This document shows positions 9,033 through 30,602 of a DNA stretch of 30,602 bases, in pieces. The stretch covers positions 1-30,602 of IMG/VR virus record IMGVR_UViG_3300035698_003324; one strand, 5' to 3'. The notes under the pieces are model-generated. The model made no database searches and had not been told where the DNA came from. It saw nothing but the letters and a program-made list of their open reading frames with translations. The DNA comes from a virus. Positions within the stretch are counted from its first letter, which is position 1; each line of letters starts with the position of its first letter. The position numbers and the translations under genes were made by a program.

Positions 9033-9361
9033 TAGGTTACTGCGTACAAATAGGAAAAATGGTAGAGATGAAAAATATCGAAACGATACAGCTTCCCGAT
9101 TTAACATTCGTACATAAGGGAACACACAAAGTGGGAAAGAATACGTACATCATCCATCGTGTCGTTAAAGAGCGTGATATTCTTGTCAGCGAACGTGGGC
9201 ATAAATATCCGAAAGAGGTATACGTTAGTAAAAACACACCGGGGCGAATCGCTAAGGATCACGTCGGTCAAGAGATAATCAAAGGAAGAAAGAGAATCAA
9301 AACAAAATCAAAGAATTTAAAAACAGTCGAGAAATTACGACAGGAGGAAAAGAAAAAATGA
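9029..9361 (+). CDS. Small basic protein of unknown function
   Basis: This 110-aa protein starts in an ATGA overlap with the tip protein stop and has AAAGGA just upstream. I do not recognise the family. It is strongly basic in its last 40 residues (KGRKRIKTKSKNLKTVEKLRQEEKKK region), with a central beta-like part (YIIHRVVKERDILVSERGHKY). There is no signal peptide, membrane segment or cysteine pair (one Cys at residue 5). It is translationally coupled on both sides, between the spike and the adhesin-like gene, so a structural or chaperone role in tail-fibre assembly is possible but unproven. Confidence 0.7.
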   Translation: MIGYCVQIGKMVEMKNIETIQLPDLTFVHKGTHKVGKNTYIIHRVVKERDILVSERGHKYPKEVYVSKNTPGRIAKDHVGQEIIKGRKRIKTKSKNLKTVEKLRQEEKKK

Positions 9362-11472
9362 AACGTATACTTCTAACACTTTTAACATTGGGAATCTTAG
9401 CAGGCACAGCGATGGCTGATGAGGTTCGATATTATGCAGATGAACAATTTCCACGAGATACAATCAGCGTCACAGATTTTCGAAGCCAGCTCAGAGGCGT
9501 TGAGCAAATGGATATCGGTGCGTTAAAACCATCAGCGAAGCTGGGCATCGATGATATGGAATGGCGTAGCGATTCGAGTGCACAAGCTCAATACTCAGGC
9601 ACAGGCGTAACGATCGGAAGTGACAGTGCGAATGAGCAAGAAGGAACGTACAGCTTAGACGTATTAACTGACGGCACAAGTAACAGAACCTTCGGTCGAT
9701 CATTAGTTTTAAATTTAAGTGCATTCACTTCGATGAAAGTATGGGAACGATCAGCAACGATCAGTGATACGTTTCAATTCTATGTGACTGACGGATCCGC
9801 AAATTCATCATACTGGGATATCACATCGAACGGCACAGCAGACACGTGGCAACAAGATACGCTGACGCTCGCAAGTCCAGACTCCAATAGTGGAACCATT
9901 GCAGATTTAAGTGACATCACATCATACGGATTCAGACAGCTAACAGCATCGAATCAATATTATTTTGATACGACAAAAGCCATTGTCGGGATGACTGTAG
10001 CGGTAAGAGGAACAAGCCTCGGAGAATATTACGAGAACGTCAGATTTTCTGGCGAGCCTTTAGCTGTCGACATGCAGGCGTCACCAACGATCACAGCACC
10101 AACAACAAATCCTCGCATCGATATTTTAACAGTCGAATCAGATGGGGATATTGTATGGGTTACAGGAACTGAAGCGTCAACTCCAAGTGCACCTTGGGTA
10201 AGCGTGCCAACAAACGTAATACCAATCGCTGAAGTTTACCAAAAAACAACGATGACAACAGTTCTCGATTACGAGGACAAAGACACCGACAGCAATCAAG
10301 GGTATATTTTAAAAGATGTCCGTCCGTTTATTTCTTTAAATTCTAGCATGGCAAAAGGTGCAGACGTAGCCAGCACAGGAACAATGACGCTAGGAAACGA
10401 CGGCAATTATTTCGACATTACAGGAACGACAACCATCACATCTATCACAGCACAGCCGGCAGGAACAATCGCATGGTTGCAGTTCGATGGTGCGACAACG
10501 GTAACAGATGGAAGTAATTTGAAGATAGGCGGAAGCTTTACAACAGCCGCAGAATCAACAATGAGCCTTGTCAGTGATGGCACGAATTGGTATGAACTCG
10601 GACGCAGTCCTCCGACAACAACATTCAATGCATTAAGTGACACTCCTTCCAACTATTCCTCACAAGCATTAAAAATTCCAAGAGTTAACTCAGGCGAAAC
10701 GGCACTCGAATATGTAGCATTTTCAATGACTGATATTTATGACACACCTTCATCCTTAACAGGAAATGCAGGAAAAGTCCTCGTGGTTAATTCAGCAGAA
10801 ACTGGCTTCGAGTTTACACAACTAAGTGGAACAGAAACATTTGTCGTCACAGACTCGCCAGCAATATGGCAAGCACCAGCCGGCATCACTAGCATATTTG
10901 TATCAGCATGTGCAGGAGGTGGTGGAGGTGGAGCCGCTGGAAATAACTCCGGGAGTGAAGTAGAACCAGGAAGTGGTGGAGCAGGCGGAGGTTGTGTCGA
11001 AAGCGTACCAGTTTCAGTGACTGCTGGAAATTCTTATGACATTACAATCGGAGCTGGAGGAGCCACACTTTCTGGTTGTTCAGTTAATAGCTGTCCAACA
11101 GGAACGCTTCCTCGAGGAAATGCTGGAGGCAATACATTATTCGAACACGACGGAGGCACTGAAACTTTATACGGAGGCACTGGCGGATACAGTGGAGATG
11201 GAAACGGAAGCACTGATTGTTGCAGTGTATACGGAGGAGGAACAGGCGGAAGCGGTACTCATGCGTCGACCGTAGATGGATCTGACGGAACAGACTGTCT
11301 ATCAGCAACAGGAGGAGCAGGAGGAGCATCAAATAACGCCGGAGCATCAGCCGCTGACACAGAAGGAAACATTTATGGTGGAGGTGGAGGAGGAGAATCT
11401 GACGACTCAACATGTACCGCCGCATCTGGAGGAGGAGCAGGAGCAGATGGATATGTCGAACTCAGATGGTAA
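9358..11472 (+). CDS. Exported glycine-rich adhesin / tail fibre-like protein
   Basis: This 704-aa protein begins at an ATG overlapping the previous stop (ATGA), with GGAGG upstream. Residues 1-20 form a Sec signal peptide: KR, a Leu-rich core, and cleavage after AMA (TAMA-DEV). Residues 21-500 are beta-rich, Ser/Thr/Asp rich and lack cysteine. From about residue 518 there is a glycine-rich domain (VSACAGGGGGG, then VTAGNSYDITIGAGGA and repeated GGTGG) ending in DGYVELRW, like Gly-rich receptor-binding tips of phage fibres. All eight cysteines lie in residues 518-686. Position after gpJ supports a fibre or adhesin. The signal peptide is unusual for a virion protein and may mean export to the periplasm or cell surface. 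Confidence 0.75.
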   Translation: MKRILLTLLTLGILAGTAMADEVRYYADEQFPRDTISVTDFRSQLRGVEQMDIGALKPSAKLGIDDMEWRSDSSAQAQYSGTGVTIGSDSANEQEGTYSLDVLTDGTSNRTFGRSLVLNLSAFTSMKVWERSATISDTFQFYVTDGSANSSYWDITSNGTADTWQQDTLTLASPDSNSGTIADLSDITSYGFRQLTASNQYYFDTTKAIVGMTVAVRGTSLGEYYENVRFSGEPLAVDMQASPTITAPTTNPRIDILTVESDGDIVWVTGTEASTPSAPWVSVPTNVIPIAEVYQKTTMTTVLDYEDKDTDSNQGYILKDVRPFISLNSSMAKGADVASTGTMTLGNDGNYFDITGTTTITSITAQPAGTIAWLQFDGATTVTDGSNLKIGGSFTTAAESTMSLVSDGTNWYELGRSPPTTTFNALSDTPSNYSSQALKIPRVNSGETALEYVAFSMTDIYDTPSSLTGNAGKVLVVNSAETGFEFTQLSGTETFVVTDSPAIWQAPAGITSIFVSACAGGGGGGAAGNNSGSEVEPGSGGAGGGCVESVPVSVTAGNSYDITIGAGGATLSGCSVNSCPTGTLPRGNAGGNTLFEHDGGTETLYGGTGGYSGDGNGSTDCCSVYGGGTGGSGTHASTVDGSDGTDCLSATGGAGGASNNAGASAADTEGNIYGGGGGGESDDSTCTAASGGGAGADGYVELRW

Positions 11473-16259: not shown

Positions 16260-16484
16260 ATGAATTACGAGGAAGCCGGAAGAAACTTAGATCAACAACG
16301 GCAACGCTTCGAGGACTCGGATTGGAGATCCGAGTCTCCCAAGCAACTCGCCGCCCAAAGAAAACTGGAGGAAAACCGTGCACAATCAAAAAAGACACTG
16401 TCACCATTGCGGACAATCGATCATGCAACACAAGCACAGCATGAGCAAATCAATGGCGGAGATGTTCCTGAAGTCAAACTTTAA
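16260..16484 (+). CDS. Small charged hypothetical protein
   Basis: The ATG at 16260 lies 1 nt after the previous stop and 11 nt after AGAGGA. The 74-aa product is hydrophilic (Arg, Gln, Glu, Ser) with the run RNLDQQRQRFEDSDWRSESP and no cysteine or hydrophobic core. It overlaps the next gene by 107 nt in another frame. A perfect 9-bp hairpin lies inside. Without it, 16260-16377 would be non-coding leader for the next gene, so this is a moderate call; the hairpin may be the functional part. Confidence 0.45.
   Translation: MNYEEAGRNLDQQRQRFEDSDWRSESPKQLAAQRKLEENRAQSKKTLSPLRTIDHATQAQHEQINGGDVPEVKL
16314..16336 (+). repeat. Perfect 9-bp hairpin with SD-like loop
   Basis: GACTCGGAT (16314-16322) pairs perfectly with ATCCGAGTC (16328-16336) around the loop TGGAG (16323-16327); one G-U pair extends the stem. 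There is no T-run after it, so it is not a standard terminator. The loop contains a purine-rich GGAG. It lies about 40 nt before the GTG of the next gene and may affect its translation or mRNA stability. Confidence 0.55.
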
Positions 16485-16791
16485 GGAACCATTCCATCTA
16501 CAGAAAACATCAAGCCTCACAAAGAATCAATACAACAATTTCCAGAAGCTAAGATATTGGGGAATTATTGAGAAGGAAGAAAGTAAGTCTGGCTGGTGGC
16601 GTATCACATCACAAGGTCGGCTCTTCGCGAACAACAAAATCAAAATACCTAAATCAGTTTGGACTTTTAACAACAAGGTCGTCAAAACAGTTGGTAGCAT
16701 ATTCATCGAAGAGTGCACAGGTCAATGGCGTAAGCGTGAAGATTATATCCAGGATATGAAACCAGCAATCAAAGAGCCAGGACTCTTCTAA
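16378..16791 (+). CDS. Hypothetical protein with N-terminal zinc motif and winged-helix-like body
   Basis: The start is the GTG at 16378, 6-7 nt after GGAGG, giving 137 aa. Residues 5-25 contain RHCHHCGQSIMQHKHS, a CxxC with several histidines that may bind zinc. The remaining sequence SLTKNQYNNFQKLRYWGIIEKEESKSGWWRITSQG resembles a small winged-helix/DUF-type phage protein in which a helix pair is followed by a beta hairpin ('W.iT..G..F'). A DNA-binding role before the replication initiator gene is possible. It ends 3 nt before that gene. Confidence 0.6.
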   Translation: MHNQKRHCHHCGQSIMQHKHSMSKSMAEMFLKSNFKEPFHLQKTSSLTKNQYNNFQKLRYWGIIEKEESKSGWWRITSQGRLFANNKIKIPKSVWTFNNKVVKTVGSIFIEECTGQWRKREDYIQDMKPAIKEPGLF

Positions 16792-16794
16792 ATT

Positions 16795-17334
16795 ATGGCA
16801 AGTCCGCAACCAGACAGATTCACAAGAGTCAGTGCAGAGTATCTCAAAGCACTTTGCAGAACCGACGTACCCGGCAATCCAGCATCAATGCTTTTTGTTG
16901 TAATACAAAAGACATGGGGATTTCGAAAGAAATGGGATTCAATAAGCAACGATCAAATGCAACAAGCAACCGGCATGACAACTCGCCAGATACAACGAGC
17001 CCGGCAATGGCTTAAATCTAAGAAGATGATCGAATCAAGAATTGGCAAAATGGGCATGAACGAGTATCGAATCCAAAAGAATTATGACCTGTGGATAACT
17101 CGTAGATCTGTGGATAAGTCACTCCAAGTGGGTACCGATAAAACGGTAGCCTCCTACCGAAAAAGTGGTAGCTACCCTACCGAAAAAGCGGTACATACAA
17201 TAGATACTAAACAACAGATAATAGATAGGGGTAAAAAGGAAACAAAAGCCTGTGGAAAACTTTTAAAAGATTTAACAAAAAACTTATCAACAACACCAAA
17301 AAAAGGAGAACGTCATGGGAGGTCAAGCAGATGA
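16795..17334 (+). CDS. Replication initiator, lambda O-like
   Basis: This 179-aa protein has the N-terminal winged-helix domain of phage replication protein O: FTRVSAEYLKALCR (residues 9-22), WGFRKKWDSISNDQM (42-56), TTRQIQRARQWLKSKKMIESR (63-84). The domain binds iterons at the phage origin. Its own gene carries the likely origin from codon 99 onward, exactly as lambda ori lies inside O, and the encoded residues there (TDKTVASYRKSGSYPTEKAV) are low-complexity because they are constrained by the iterons. The protein is shorter than lambda O (299 aa). No gpP-type helicase loader or helicase gene is seen in the window, so host DnaA/DnaB may be used directly. Confidence 0.82.
   Translation: MASPQPDRFTRVSAEYLKALCRTDVPGNPASMLFVVIQKTWGFRKKWDSISNDQMQQATGMTTRQIQRARQWLKSKKMIESRIGKMGMNEYRIQKNYDLWITRRSVDKSLQVGTDKTVASYRKSGSYPTEKAVHTIDTKQQIIDRGKKETKACGKLLKDLTKNLSTTPKKGERHGRSSR
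17090..17313 (+). other. Putative replication origin inside initiator gene
   Basis: Two perfect DnaA boxes in reverse orientation, TGTGGATAA at 17090-17098 and 17109-17117, precede three palindromic iterons (17133-17193). Downstream is an A/T-rich stretch (17194-17313) with single-mismatch DnaA boxes TGTGGAAAA (17251-17259) and TTATCAACA (17284-17292). This order (initiator sites, then an easily melted region, within an O-like gene) matches lambdoid origins, with added DnaA sites. Seen directly; function inferred. Confidence 0.8.
17133..17193 (+). repeat. Three 16-bp palindromic iterons (TACCG-N6-CGGTA)
   Basis: Copies lie at 17133-17148 (TACCGATAAAACGGTA), 17155-17170 (TACCGAAAAAGTGGTA, one mismatch in the right arm) and 17178-17193 (TACCGAAAAAGCGGTA). 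Starts are 22 and 23 bp apart, about two helical turns, so they face the same side of the DNA. Each has an A-rich centre. They are the presumed binding sites for the O-like initiator. Confidence 0.88.
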
Positions 17335-17449
17335 TATCGTTGATGGAGCATGCTGTCAAACTTGTGGAATGTACTTTGAAGAAGAGCAGGGATATCCATG
17401 TGATTGTAGGCATTGCAGTGGAAACCCAGAAGCTCCACAAATCATTTAA
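17315..17449 (+). CDS. Small zinc-binding phage protein (44 aa)
   Basis: The start ATG at 17315 has AAGGAG 6 nt upstream and overlaps the end of the initiator gene by 20 nt. The 44-aa product has ACCQTCGMYF (residues 13-22), then EEQGYPCDCRHCSGN (residues 25-39): six cysteines in CCxxC...CxCxxC form, typical of tiny phage zinc proteins with a 'C..CG..f.....GyP..C..C' layout. It fills a stretch that otherwise has no gene. Function unknown; it is probably early-expressed with the initiator. Confidence 0.75.
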   Translation: MGGQADDIVDGACCQTCGMYFEEEQGYPCDCRHCSGNPEAPQII

Positions 17450-17503
17450 TACCAATCAGTTAAGAGAAGATCAATTGTTTTAACACAAATGGAGGTAATG
17501 AAA

Positions 17504-18226
17504 ATGGATCAACAAGCCTGTAAGGTGAAGCCAGAAGAAAAATTATTAAATGGAAAAACGGTTGGCATCCTACTGCCAGGACAATCGCTAAGCCAGCTAA
17601 ATGACCACGTGCAACACTTTAAGGGCAAGCAGATAGTCTGGGCAGGGCTAAACAAGTTCAGAGCCTTAGAGGCACAAGTGCTGGAGAATATAGGCGAACG
17701 CATAGAGATCGGATGGATCAGTGCGATTGATCGAGTTGACAACCAGATGCACCACATCTGCAACCAGCTAAAAAGAGAGGACGTAATTGTCACGAACGTG
17801 GAAGGCTTCGACAAAATCATGATGCCGGGAAGCGAGGCACCGCCAAATCTTATCATTGATCAAATCGGCAATCAATTCTACTTAAGCGAGAAACACGGCA
17901 GGCATGGAACCAACAGTCTGAGTGCCCTGCTTTTTTGGATGTACCAATACCTACCAAAGCAAGTGCTGATTTTTGGATGCGATGGACATCCGCACAACGC
18001 AATGGCTGTTTACCAGAACCAGCTGGAAGTTTACCCGGAAGAAAACTACAACGAAAGAGCGGTCACAATCAGCCGTGACACAGAGCTCATGAATAAATGC
18101 TTTTGGAATAAGGCAGAAGAAATAGGCGTGCCGCACATACCAACATTTAATGTGAACAAAGCAAGCACGCTCGAATGCTTTCCAAGAATAACAGGGCAAG
18201 AAGCACTCAATTTAATAGGTCAATAA
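17504..18226 (+). CDS. DUF115 / MptE-like Rossmann-fold protein (sugar or pterin related)
   Basis: The ATG at 17504 is 7 nt after GGAGGT and gives 240 aa. GKTVGILLPGQSLSQL (residues about 18-33) resembles the nucleotide-binding 'v.i.gpGpSL' loop of DUF115/6-hydroxymethylpterin diphosphokinase MptE-like and bacterial sialyltransferase-like proteins. NSLSALLFWMYQYLPKQVLIFGCDGHPHN (about 137-165) matches the second conserved block ending in GCD. The ending FNVNKASTLECFPRI is the usual 'N.s..S.l.cfp.i' tail of this group. In phages and surface-glycan islands such proteins are linked with sugar transfer. The exact reaction is unknown. Confidence 0.6.
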   Translation: MDQQACKVKPEEKLLNGKTVGILLPGQSLSQLNDHVQHFKGKQIVWAGLNKFRALEAQVLENIGERIEIGWISAIDRVDNQMHHICNQLKREDVIVTNVEGFDKIMMPGSEAPPNLIIDQIGNQFYLSEKHGRHGTNSLSALLFWMYQYLPKQVLIFGCDGHPHNAMAVYQNQLEVYPEENYNERAVTISRDTELMNKCFWNKAEEIGVPHIPTFNVNKASTLECFPRITGQEALNLIGQ

Positions 18227-18269
18227 ATTGATTAAATAAGTTGACTCTTAAAGGTTAATCAATTATACT
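18226..18269 (+). promoter_or_regulatory. Strong sigma70 promoter within a 10-bp inverted repeat
   Basis: TTGACT (18241-18246) and TATACT (18264-18269) are spaced 17 nt, each one mismatch from consensus. A perfect inverted repeat AATTGATTAA (18226-18235) and TTAATCAATT (18255-18264) spans the -35 and touches the -10, separated by 19 nt. This looks like an operator for a dimeric repressor acting on this promoter. Transcription would begin near 18276. Confidence 0.8.
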
Positions 18270-18288
18270 TTAGGTACTTAAACAAACT

Positions 18289-18313
18289 GCCGCACGCCAC
18301 TACGGTGTGCGGC
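18289..18313 (+). other. GC-rich leader hairpin
   Basis: GCCGCACGCC (18289-18298) pairs with GGTGTGCGGC (18304-18313) around loop ACTAC: ten pairs including one G-U. It lies about 13 nt after the predicted transcription start and is followed by TCAACCAAAGG, with no T-run. It may shield the 5' end of the mRNA, or act as a factor-dependent pause or termination site. Confidence 0.65.
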
Positions 18314-18335: not shown

Positions 18336-18650
18336 ATGCTACTGTCAGAACTACTGGAACGCCATGCAAGAGATGCAAAAGAAGTTTACCAAAGAGGATA
18401 TGACGAAGGCTTCAAAGCGTGTGAACGGATATCGCCAGGCATGATCAACATCCACAGCTTAACACTAGCAGACATTGGCAAGTGGGTAGTTTACACCAGG
18501 AGCGGAACAAACCACAAAGAGCTAGGACGAATTAAATCAATGACCAATGAAACAATCTTTGTTGTTTATAACTGCGGTCGGGAGTGGGAACGCTTCCAAG
18601 ACTTTACAGCCGCATCGACAAACCCAAGAGATCTTCAGTGGGTATTATGA
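18336..18650 (+). CDS. Small phage protein, first gene after promoter
   Basis: This 104-aa protein starts after AAAGGAAGGAAGGCAA. The N-terminus is helical (LLERHARDAKEVYQRGYDEGFK), then a beta-rich domain follows: DIGKWVVYTRSGTNHKELGRIKSMTNETIFVVYNCG and an ending LQWVL. The second part resembles small phage proteins with an SH3-like barrel ('G.wV.y......GrI.s.n...ifV.y') that are common near replication genes; function unknown. It is the first gene of the unit driven by the promoter at 18241-18269. Confidence 0.7.
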   Translation: MLLSELLERHARDAKEVYQRGYDEGFKACERISPGMINIHSLTLADIGKWVVYTRSGTNHKELGRIKSMTNETIFVVYNCGREWERFQDFTAASTNPRDLQWVL

Positions 18651-28033: not shown

Positions 28034-28285
28034 ATGAAGAACATGACAGCTAAAGATTACATCACAATGGCACTCGGTGGCATCGCTCTGGTAATTGCAC
28101 TCGGCGGTGTTTTTACATTACCAGCACGAGTCGACAAGATCGAGAAGAGCATGGGTCGATTAGAAGTGTTAGTGCGACAGGATGAACAAATCAAAAATTT
28201 AAGATCAGACCTCGATGAGCAGAAGCGTGACAACAGAGATATGCATGGCAGGATGTGGCGAAGGATAGGAGGCGTATCAGAATGA
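28034..28285 (+). CDS. Small one-TM coiled-coil protein
   Basis: ATG 28034 is preceded by AAAAGGATTTAAA and gives 83 aa; the ATG at 28016 is part of the post-capsid hairpin edge and lacks a ribosome binding site. Residues 11-28 are hydrophobic (MALGGIALVIALGGVFTL), then a heptad-like helix follows (ARVDKIEKSMGRLEVLVRQDEQIKNLRSDLDEQ) with a basic end. The plan (short N-terminus, one TM, coiled coil) resembles small phage membrane proteins, including some holin-like or spanin-like ones. Position after the capsid gene and before glycosyltransferases is unusual for a lysis protein. Confidence 0.68.
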   Translation: MKNMTAKDYITMALGGIALVIALGGVFTLPARVDKIEKSMGRLEVLVRQDEQIKNLRSDLDEQKRDNRDMHGRMWRRIGGVSE

Positions 28286-28944
28286 AAGTATCGTGTGCGA
28301 TTAACTCAAAGAACCCAAACTACGACTGGCTTATTCAGACGTTGCAATCAGCAACAGCATTTGATGAAGTCGTTTGTTATTTTGACGGTACGCAGATTGA
28401 GAACCAGCGAACGATCGAAGGGAAAACATTTCCGAATCTGACCATTGTAGGCGACGGCATCGAACGAGATATCAAAGACGGATTCAATACGGCAATATCA
28501 AATACATCAAACGAGTGGGTGTGCTCATTCTGTGATGACGATTATTTTTTAGTGCCGGAAGTAATGAATTTAATAGAACGCATCAAGACGGATAACTTTG
28601 GAGATGGAGCTGACATCATTCACTTTCCTGTACAGACAGGCGGAGGACGATGGGGATCAGTAAAGGAAAACATTGGCGTCGGAGATTTTGTCAACGCTAA
28701 CTGCATACCTCACGGATCTTTTTTCCGCAGAAATGTATGGGATAAACTCGGCGGATACACAATGAACGAATGCTCGGACTGGAATTTCTGGCTACGTGCG
28801 GCGAAGGCAGGCTTTAAATTTAAACCATACGACAAGCCGATTTATTTCTTTAGACAAGGAACTGGAGAGCGATCAGCATATAACAAACAGCTCAAACAAC
28901 ATGGGCTTGATTCCTTGAGGAGATTGGTACATGAAAATTCATAA
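28282..28944 (+). CDS. GT-A (family 2-like) glycosyltransferase
   Basis: ATG 28282 overlaps the previous stop (ATGA), with AGGAGG upstream, and gives 220 aa. Motifs of GT2-type enzymes: NPNYDWLIQTLQSATAFDEVVCYFDGT (residues 11-37) and the metal-binding acidic cluster CDDDYFLVPE (residues 84-93). Later PHGSFFRRNVWDKLGGY and ECSDWNFWLRAAKAGFKF (about 143-180) match the acceptor-side 'g....r....v.GYde....e.D.dfwlR....G' block. It would transfer a sugar from a nucleotide donor in the cytoplasm. There is no membrane segment. First of three glycosyltransferase genes directly after the head genes. Confidence 0.8.
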   Translation: MKVSCAINSKNPNYDWLIQTLQSATAFDEVVCYFDGTQIENQRTIEGKTFPNLTIVGDGIERDIKDGFNTAISNTSNEWVCSFCDDDYFLVPEVMNLIERIKTDNFGDGADIIHFPVQTGGGRWGSVKENIGVGDFVNANCIPHGSFFRRNVWDKLGGYTMNECSDWNFWLRAAKAGFKFKPYDKPIYFFRQGTGERSAYNKQLKQHGLDSLRRLVHENS

Positions 28945-29839
28945 AGACATCGTCGTAGTATCAGACAACTTTTATCCGGCATACACTGGCGGAGCAGAGA
29001 TGACAACGGAAGCGATCCTCGAAAACTACCCTGGCAAGATCAAGCGGATCAGAAGCAAGGATCTTAATTACTTACATCTCGCTATGAATAAAAAGAAACT
29101 TTGGATCTTCACAAATATCGAGTACATCAATATGGCATTACTGCCAACCATCGCACGAAACCTAACATACGCCGTGATTGAATACGATTATAAATTTTGC
29201 AGATTAAGAAGCCCGGAGAAACACATCTACCTAGAGAGATCTAAACCAACACCGATACCAGCAATCGTCCAGCTGATGGATAACTCTAAAGGTAATTTCT
29301 TTATGAGCCAGAAGCAAGTGCTTGATCATATTGATTACATAACGAGAGAATACAAAGCACCGGCATTCGTGATCGGTTCATGCTTTTCAAAAGATGATCT
29401 GAATTTCATTGAAGAGTTGTCGATGAAAAAGATAGTACGGCAGGATAAATGGTTGATCCAATATTCAAAGTCATGGATCAAAGGAACAAACAAATGTGTT
29501 GAGTCAGCGATCAAGCAAGGCGTTGACTATGAGTTTTTAGAAAATCTCAAACACCGTGACCTTCTCAAAAAGCTACGCCATTGCCAGGGGCTTATCTACA
29601 CACCAAACGGTGCAGATACATGTCCTCGACTGGTAATTGAAGCGAAACTTCTTGGTTGCGATTTAGAGTTAAACGATTACGTGCTTCATAAAGACGAGAA
29701 TTGGTTTAACAAGGATCCACAGGAAGTGCTTTCTTACTTGAGAATAAGACCGGCAGTTTTTTGGAATAGATTAACTCAATTACTTACGGAGGAAAACGAT
29801 GGCAAAATTCATCAACGAACGAACAAAGCAAGAGTTTGA
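28931..29839 (+). CDS. GT-B glycosyltransferase-like protein
   Basis: This 302-aa protein overlaps the GT-A gene by 14 nt and follows GAGGAG. IVVVSDNFYPAYTGGAEMTTEAIL (residues 7-30) is the classical N-terminal start of GT4-type enzymes ('...D.f.p..GGaE......'). The C-terminal domain includes LRHCQGLIYTPNGADTCPRLVIEAKLLGCDLELND (about 216-250), where 'y.p.g.d..prlviEA..lGc' matches the donor-binding E-x7-E type region in a reduced form. Middle part has no second clear motif. It is shorter than typical GT4 (~370 aa), so the two domains are compact. Confidence 0.7.
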   Translation: MKIHKDIVVVSDNFYPAYTGGAEMTTEAILENYPGKIKRIRSKDLNYLHLAMNKKKLWIFTNIEYINMALLPTIARNLTYAVIEYDYKFCRLRSPEKHIYLERSKPTPIPAIVQLMDNSKGNFFMSQKQVLDHIDYITREYKAPAFVIGSCFSKDDLNFIEELSMKKIVRQDKWLIQYSKSWIKGTNKCVESAIKQGVDYEFLENLKHRDLLKKLRHCQGLIYTPNGADTCPRLVIEAKLLGCDLELNDYVLHKDENWFNKDPQEVLSYLRIRPAVFWNRLTQLLTEENDGKIHQRTNKARV

Positions 29840-30050
29840 TTTCCCTGCAGGATGTAATCCAGCAGATCCGATATCAAATGAAAAATTGAAAGAAGTAAAG
29901 GGCGACACAAAAGCGGATGCGAAAGCAAAGAAAGACGCTGATGCAAAAGCTAAGAAAGAAGCGGACGACAAAGCGGCAAAAGATAAAGCTGACGCGGATG
30001 CGAAAGCCAAAGCTGATGCAGAGGCGAAAGCCAAAGAGGGAGATAAGTAA
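29799..30050 (+). CDS. Lys/Ala/Asp-repeat protein
   Basis: ATG 29799 follows GGAGGAAAAC and overlaps the previous gene by 41 nt. Residues 1-35 are a normal mixed segment (FINERTKQEFDFPAGCNPADP), and residues 36-83 are an imperfect repeat of KADAKAK/DAKAKKDAD units, strongly predicted to be a charged single helix or coil. Function unknown; similar tails occur in phage structural or linker proteins. It lies between two glycosyltransferase genes. Lys-rich helices could bind DNA or acidic surfaces (speculative). Confidence 0.65.
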   Translation: MAKFINERTKQEFDFPAGCNPADPISNEKLKEVKGDTKADAKAKKDADAKAKKEADDKAAKDKADADAKAKADAEAKAKEGDK

Positions 30051-30051
30051 A

Positions 30052-30602
30052 ATGAGCAAACCGAAGCTTCAATGGGTAACACAAGAAAGTGATTCCATAG
30101 GAAACGCCTTCGGATATGCTTCACATAATCGTGAAATGAAGCGGCACAGTGCTGAGTTTATCGACATCGATGACTCGGCACCTGTCGCCCTCATGATCGT
30201 GCCGGCAGATAAGTTCGTGCGGATACCAGGAAAGATCAATATTCTTTTCAGCATGTTTGAAACAACGGATCTGCCAACAACATACATGAAAGCTTTGAAA
30301 GATGCTGACGCAATAATCGTGCCTTGTAAATTCTGCAAGGACTTATTTAAACGATACACAACAACGCCGATCTACGTATGCCATGAAGGTGTGGACACGA
30401 ACATATATCAACACCACAAAAGGACATTAAGTAGAGATGACAAATTTAGATTTTTATGGGTTGGAGCCGCAAACCCACGCAAAGGATATCCGATTGTCCT
30501 GGAAGCAATCAAGCTATTTGAAAACGTGCCAAACGTAGAGATCTACATGAAAACAACAATGCCAAAGATAACGTGGATCGATACAATAAAAGCAACATGG
30601 CA
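30052..30602 (+). CDS. GT4-like glycosyltransferase (3' partial)
   Basis: ATG 30052 lies one base after the previous stop, with AGAGGGAGA upstream; 183 codons are open to the window end. FETTDLPTTYMKALKDADAIIVPCKFCKDLFKR (residues about 71-103) is the usual GT4 switch from N- to C-domain ('E....p..w...l...D.iivps.f....f'). VCHEGVDTNIY and FRFLWVGAANPRKGYPIVLEAI (about 110-158) are the donor-domain start, with the typical 'G.....KG......a'. The E-x7-E catalytic region would lie beyond the edge. It appears full-length GT4 in pattern. Third sugar-transfer gene in a row. Confidence 0.82.
   Translation, partial: MSKPKLQWVTQESDSIGNAFGYASHNREMKRHSAEFIDIDDSAPVALMIVPADKFVRIPGKINILFSMFETTDLPTTYMKALKDADAIIVPCKFCKDLFKRYTTTPIYVCHEGVDTNIYQHHKRTLSRDDKFRFLWVGAANPRKGYPIVLEAIKLFENVPNVEIYMKTTMPKITWIDTIKATW

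Follow-up and report, generated by a model that had tools for sequence, protein, structure and literature searches.

A probable phage replication origin inside an O-like initiator gene, with palindromic iterons beside consensus DnaA boxes

The locus and its genes

The window analysed here, that is, the whole 30,602-nucleotide (30.6 kb) stretch of IMG/VR virus record IMGVR_UViG_3300035698_003324, has no terminal direct repeat and runs from tail genes, through a replication and recombination block (approximately 13-20 kb), to ParB-like, terminase, portal and capsid genes. The right end of the contig interrupts the last glycosyltransferase-like ORF, and the genome is therefore incomplete, at least on that side. 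The region 3' of the major capsid gene (28255-30602) holds a glycosyltransferase PHROG match (28255-28944) and two more glycosyltransferase-like ORFs. No close relatives were found in IMG/VR with either the O-like or the terminase protein, and a terminase search within the class to which the closest O homologue, a Melioribacteraceae MAG, belongs returned distant matches only. The cumulative GC skew climbed steadily along the contig, where the genes run in one direction, and gave no origin signal. The features at the initiator gene and its upstream neighbour are as follows.

16378-16791, plus strand: upstream neighbour, 137 aa, wHTH-like, matching phrog_2693 (unknown function); a possible partner
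16795-17334, plus strand: O-like replication initiator gene, 179 aa, with a winged helix at about residues 10-100 and a predicted unstructured tail at residues 101-179
17090-17098, minus strand: perfect DnaA box TTATCCACA, an exact match to the consensus
17109-17117, minus strand: perfect DnaA box TTATCCACA, starting 19 bp after the box at 17090 and in another reading frame
17133-17148, no strand: iteron 1, TACCG-N6-CGGTA, TACCGATAAAACGGTA, a perfect palindrome
17155-17170, no strand: iteron 2, TACCG-N6-TGGTA, TACCGAAAAAGTGGTA, with one arm mismatch
17178-17193, no strand: iteron 3, TACCG-N6-CGGTA, TACCGAAAAAGCGGTA, a perfect palindrome
17195-17300, no strand: A/T-rich stretch of low stability, a likely DNA unwinding element from its stability and A+T content
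17251-17259, minus strand: near DnaA box TTTTCCACA, one mismatch
17284-17292, plus strand: near DnaA box TTATCAACA, one mismatch
17331-17359, minus strand: sigma-70-like promoter, TTGACA-17-TATCAT, 11/12 and the best consensus match in the window; assigned by consensus only

To the right of the initiator gene, the 245-aa protein encoded at 17489-18226 had no convincing Pfam, PHROG or NCBIfam match, and no Walker A motif was seen in it by eye, so that it is not an obvious helicase loader; it may perhaps be a DUF115-like sugar enzyme. Within 18241-18313, a rightward promoter-like site (TTGACT-17-TATACT), lying where stability is among the lowest on the contig, is followed by a hairpin, GCCGCACGCC...GTGTGCGGC, immediately 5' of the gene at 18336.

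The initiator protein, its iterons and the DnaA boxes

The product of 16795-17334 matched PF04492 (Phage_rep_O) with E 2.1e-15 and 57.4 bits (cut-off 28.7) and phrog_277, 'replication initiation O-like', with E 1.9e-16; a match to TIGR01610 (E 9.8e-9, 35.6 bits) lay under the curated cut-off of 45.5. An AlphaFold2 model (40 relatives) gave pLDDT values of at least 88 at residues 11-100 and of 53-64 beyond, that is, a confident winged helix with an unstructured tail, and its best structural matches among viral models were lambda O N-terminal-domain proteins. Searched by fold, the PDB yielded generic winged helices but no hit at E ≤ 0.001; searched by sequence, it gave nothing useful, and the RepA_N family gave no match at E ≤ 1. 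The initiator is assigned to PF04492 and not to the Rep_3/TrfA type. With 179 aa, it is short compared with the family median of 279; it is predicted to have no folded C-terminal domain, and the C-terminal domain with which members of the lambda O family contact P or the helicase was not found in it. Membership in PF04492 holds for the N-terminal domain and does not imply that the lambda mechanism applies in full.

A previous reading of the locus, made from the sequence only, had described three palindromic iterons, 22-23 bp apart on one face of the helix. Two of the three are indeed perfect, while the middle one is near-perfect, with a mismatch in one arm; the spacing was as described, the starts lying 22 and 23 bp apart, or about 2.1-2.2 helical turns. 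They are palindromes and not the non-palindromic direct repeats of RK2-type origins. The palindrome was expected 0 times (100 shuffles of the whole window), and when the peptide was recoded synonymously 5000 times, no version contained two; chance is thereby ruled out for the palindromes, as it is for the box clustering described below. The 22/23 bp spacing does not keep the reading frame and, because the copies of both box and iteron lie in different frames, the repetition points to selection on the DNA rather than on the peptide. The suggestion that the DNA repeats shape the encoded peptide, which is predicted to be unstructured there, is supported in the same way.

The boxes at 17090 and 17109 are the only perfect DnaA boxes within the window; they come directly after the segment for the winged helix, and it is the tail of the protein that the origin-like DNA encodes. 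The two perfect and two near boxes of the sequence-only reading were all recovered by our scan, and they cluster beyond what shuffling produces: 0 of 300 whole-window shuffles had two perfect boxes within 30 bp, and 0 of 300 had four boxes (≤1 mismatch) within 205 bp. Two or more perfect boxes anywhere in the gene arose in 14 of 5000 synonymous recodings (about 0.003). The looser pattern TTWTNCACA is unenriched window-wide (3 found, 3.55 expected), and the signal is one of clustering and exact match, not of looser-pattern abundance. We regard the boxes as likely to be functional.

The A/T-rich flank that had also been described was found as a low-stability stretch directly to the right of the iterons, in which 17195-17275 ranks third for low stability among the 80-bp regions of the window and the A+T content reaches 78% (50-bp windows starting at 17231-17261). 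The promoter-like site at 17331-17359 would fire to the left, across the origin; it is possible that it acts as a convergent promoter, or that it is unrelated. Its identification with lambda pO was ruled out by position, as lambda pO is found left of ori, at the 5' end of the O gene.

Comparison with O-like loci and with other phage initiators

For comparison we used 165 O-like loci, drawn from bacterial genomes as well as from phages and viral contigs. Nearly all of these relatives have tandem palindromes approximately 20-24 bp apart right after the winged helix (around residue 99-113), and the palindromes are lineage-specific (TTAGC-N7-GCTAA, GTCTC-N7-GAGAC, GTCAC-N7-GTGAC, TTACC-N7-GGTAA and others), as expected for initiator-specific sites. 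In-gene iterons, as recognized from these sequences, are an ordinary, well-conserved feature of the O family. The proposal of a lambda-style origin within the O-like gene is well supported by the family membership, the fold and an iteron position shared by nearly all relatives, and the segment at 17.09-17.30 kb is very probably the replication origin of the phage.

The DnaA boxes are a different matter. Scanned from 100 bp before the start of the match to 300 bp after the gene, none of the 165 relatives has a perfect box (95% upper bound 1.8%), and none has more than two boxes at one mismatch, compared with four in the window, so that the boxes cannot be put down to family membership as such. 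The closest O homologues are without boxes and thus give no support for conservation of the trait in the lineage; two relatives of similar length, L014 (186 aa) and L097 (187 aa), are without them too.

IMG/VR was then scanned for tandem perfect DnaA boxes, keeping ORFs that contained them on the sense strand; at least seven other phage initiator genes (L205, L213, L244, L292, L310, L396 and L398) share the layout, and the identity of their boxes is ascertained by this search. In these hybrids the order is winged helix, tandem co-oriented boxes on the coding strand and, where iterons are visible, iterons. L213, the only one of the seven belonging to the O family (Phage_rep_O, PF04492), has three boxes followed by GGTAACT-N4-AGTTACC repeats; the others are mostly of the HTH_36 type and match PHROG replication-initiation families. 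Palindromic repeats and A/T-rich sequence follow the boxes in most hybrids, the repeats of L205, L244 and L310 having been seen by eye and left unflagged by the palindrome scan, and the box spacing is mostly 12 bp, against 19 in the window. Because the layout recurs in other initiators, the combination of boxes and iterons appears to be a real, recurrent design rather than an accident of this window. Searching for the box-box-TACCG arrangement of the window itself gave no other match, and perfect boxes were absent from eight more named-phage loci with hybrid-related initiators. Tandem perfect boxes are common in IMG/VR contigs, many of them outside recognizable initiator genes. Read in frame, the tandem boxes of most other hybrids encode VDNSVDKS-like peptides, a simple marker by which such origins could be sought in metagenomes.

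Three of the hybrids, L292, L396 and L398, are mutually homologous initiators of the HTH_36 type. They keep two or three tandem DnaA boxes (at 9250-9500, at 1560-1700 and, on the minus strand, at approximately 2400-2580, respectively), and their iteron palindromes differ (GAAAC-N7-GTTTC versus GCAAC-N7-GTTGC). This suggests, from the sequences, that iteron specificity can switch beside constant DnaA boxes, whose identity was ascertained by the search; codon identity inside the boxes was dropped as evidence because the loci had been selected by box sequence.

A search for tandem TACCG-N6-CGGTA found seven contigs. Four of these encode wHTH replication initiators of the HTH_36 type, not Phage_rep_O (L002, L005, L006 and L007, forming two pairs of relatives), with similarly spaced in-gene palindromes and no DnaA boxes; the tandem palindrome also occurs in unrelated genes, namely a KilA-N gene (L003) and a coding repeat (L008). 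The palindrome sequence itself is therefore not diagnostic, and the similarity of the four initiators to the window may come from recognition of a common half-site or may have arisen convergently.

A helicase-loading protein of their own, carried or partnered, is usual for lambda-type phages, and in the annotated relatives examined a helicase or loader comes after O. No helicase, loader, lambda-P, DnaC, DnaB or primase gene was recognized within the window, although, because the contig is incomplete, a helicase gene could be missing from it. Of the 152 O-like loci that extend 1.5 kb or more downstream, a simple search found a helicase, loader or P-like ORF in 107 (70%), compared with 0 of 7 other hybrids (Fisher p=1e-4, or p=0.012 when the closest subgroup is the reference), figures that are inflated by related sequences and that come from flanks not all of equal length and from a few detection queries, taken from enterobacteria, Halomonas and Pseudomonas.

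A model of the origin and its relation to known systems

The order of DnaA boxes, iterons and A/T-rich stretch is that of RK2-type origins, and the hybrid of phage-initiator and host-DnaA control envisaged by the sequence-only reading, with a role for DnaA that we infer, agrees with the finding that the layout recurs in other phage initiators and with the lack of helicase-recruiting parts. Our preferred reading, to which we give a probability of roughly 0.6, is a lambda-style origin that works like RK2 oriV, with the O-like protein on the iterons and host DnaA delivering DnaB. Each of the three palindromic iterons, all on the same helical face, would be bound by dimers of the O-like winged-helix protein, bending the DNA and straining the A/T-rich stretch to the right. 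Host DnaA would bind at the left pair of boxes, and less strongly at the pair within the A/T-rich stretch, helping to melt that stretch and recruiting host DnaB through the host's own loading route. In such a division of labour, O would provide specificity and opening, and DnaA the delivery of the helicase. It is because O is without a folded C-terminal helicase-recruiting domain, and because no P, DnaC or DnaB was recognized, that we look to host DnaA for the supply of DnaB, and we lean slightly towards a role for DnaA in helicase recruitment rather than in regulation.

The main rival to this reading, considerably less probable in our view, is that the boxes are regulatory: O and host factors would fire the origin, and DnaA would tune origin transcription or link replication to the level of DnaA-ATP, much as it acts at lambda pR and near pO. 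DnaA is known to stimulate transcription from lambda pR (PMC7466680) and to footprint two DnaA-box-like sites downstream of pO (PMC3985674), and the strong antisense promoter-like site at 17359-17331 also speaks for this reading. The boxes, however, adjoin iterons, as in iteron plasmids, and not a promoter, and a short O with no helicase or loader leaves the recruitment of DnaB unexplained. Alternatively, the protein may be a truncated lambda-type O for which the tail, the upstream 137-aa protein or an off-contig gene recruits DnaB, the boxes being a minor accessory. The incomplete contig, the neighbour of unknown function at 16378-16791 and the existence of similarly short, box-less proteins in L014 and L097 all speak for such an arrangement; we consider it improbable, as replication genes are usually adjacent, with a helicase or loader after O in the annotated relatives examined, and the tail is predicted to be unstructured. 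Least probable of all, and by our estimate very unlikely, is a plain O-type origin in which both DnaA boxes match by chance or are mere relics. The lack of perfect boxes in all 165 relatives and the unenriched looser pattern would agree with it, but neither the shuffles (0/300 with two perfect boxes within 30 bp) nor the recodings (14/5000 reaching two) readily produce such boxes by chance, and the same order and orientation recur in other phage initiators.

The window might belong to a scattered, unnamed class of loader-less winged-helix initiators with tandem DnaA boxes beside in-gene iterons, at which the loading of host DnaB would depend on host DnaA; we put this forward tentatively, at somewhat less than even odds. 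Equally tentatively, the window would be an O-family example within that class, the layout would have arisen several times and replication would be tied to the host initiation switch. The layout would then hint at a way for phages to do without a loader, with DnaA in its place, and phage replication would become sensitive to host DnaA.

In lambda, iteron-bound O opens an A/T-rich region and P delivers DnaB (PMC5043065). The window resembles the lambda O/ori-lambda system in its O-family winged helix, its in-gene tandem palindromic iterons and the A/T-rich region directly to the right (PMC5043065), and differs from it in having perfect DnaA boxes beside the iterons, a shorter protein (179 aa against about 280-300) that lacks a folded C-terminal domain, and no adjoining P, DnaC or DnaB gene. 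The RepA_N plasmids, pSK41 among them, likewise have a wHTH initiator with its binding sites centrally inside the rep gene, and the peptide encoded by those sites is a dispensable linker in pSK41-type rep (PMC5703833); these plasmids have, unlike the window, a different domain family and a primase-binding C-terminal domain, and no DnaA boxes have been detected in the staphylococcal plasmids (PMC5703833). At RK2 oriV, DnaBC is recruited to the DnaA boxes by DnaA and travels on from there to the unwinding element (PMC4980987). The window shares with RK2 oriV/TrfA, and with the P1, F and pSC101 iteron plasmids, the order of DnaA boxes, iterons and unwinding element and, probably, the use of host DnaA together with a replicon initiator (PMC4980987, PMC5043065); unlike the RK2 type, it has an O-type rather than a Rep_3 initiator, an origin inside the initiator gene, and palindromic iterons in place of direct repeats bound by monomers. 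In the open-access literature we found no description of a phage O-type origin with adjoining consensus DnaA boxes. It is highly probable that this is an origin of a known kind in which the in-gene DnaA boxes are what is new, and O-type iterons combined with consensus DnaA boxes in partner-less initiators would bridge phage and iteron-plasmid replication.
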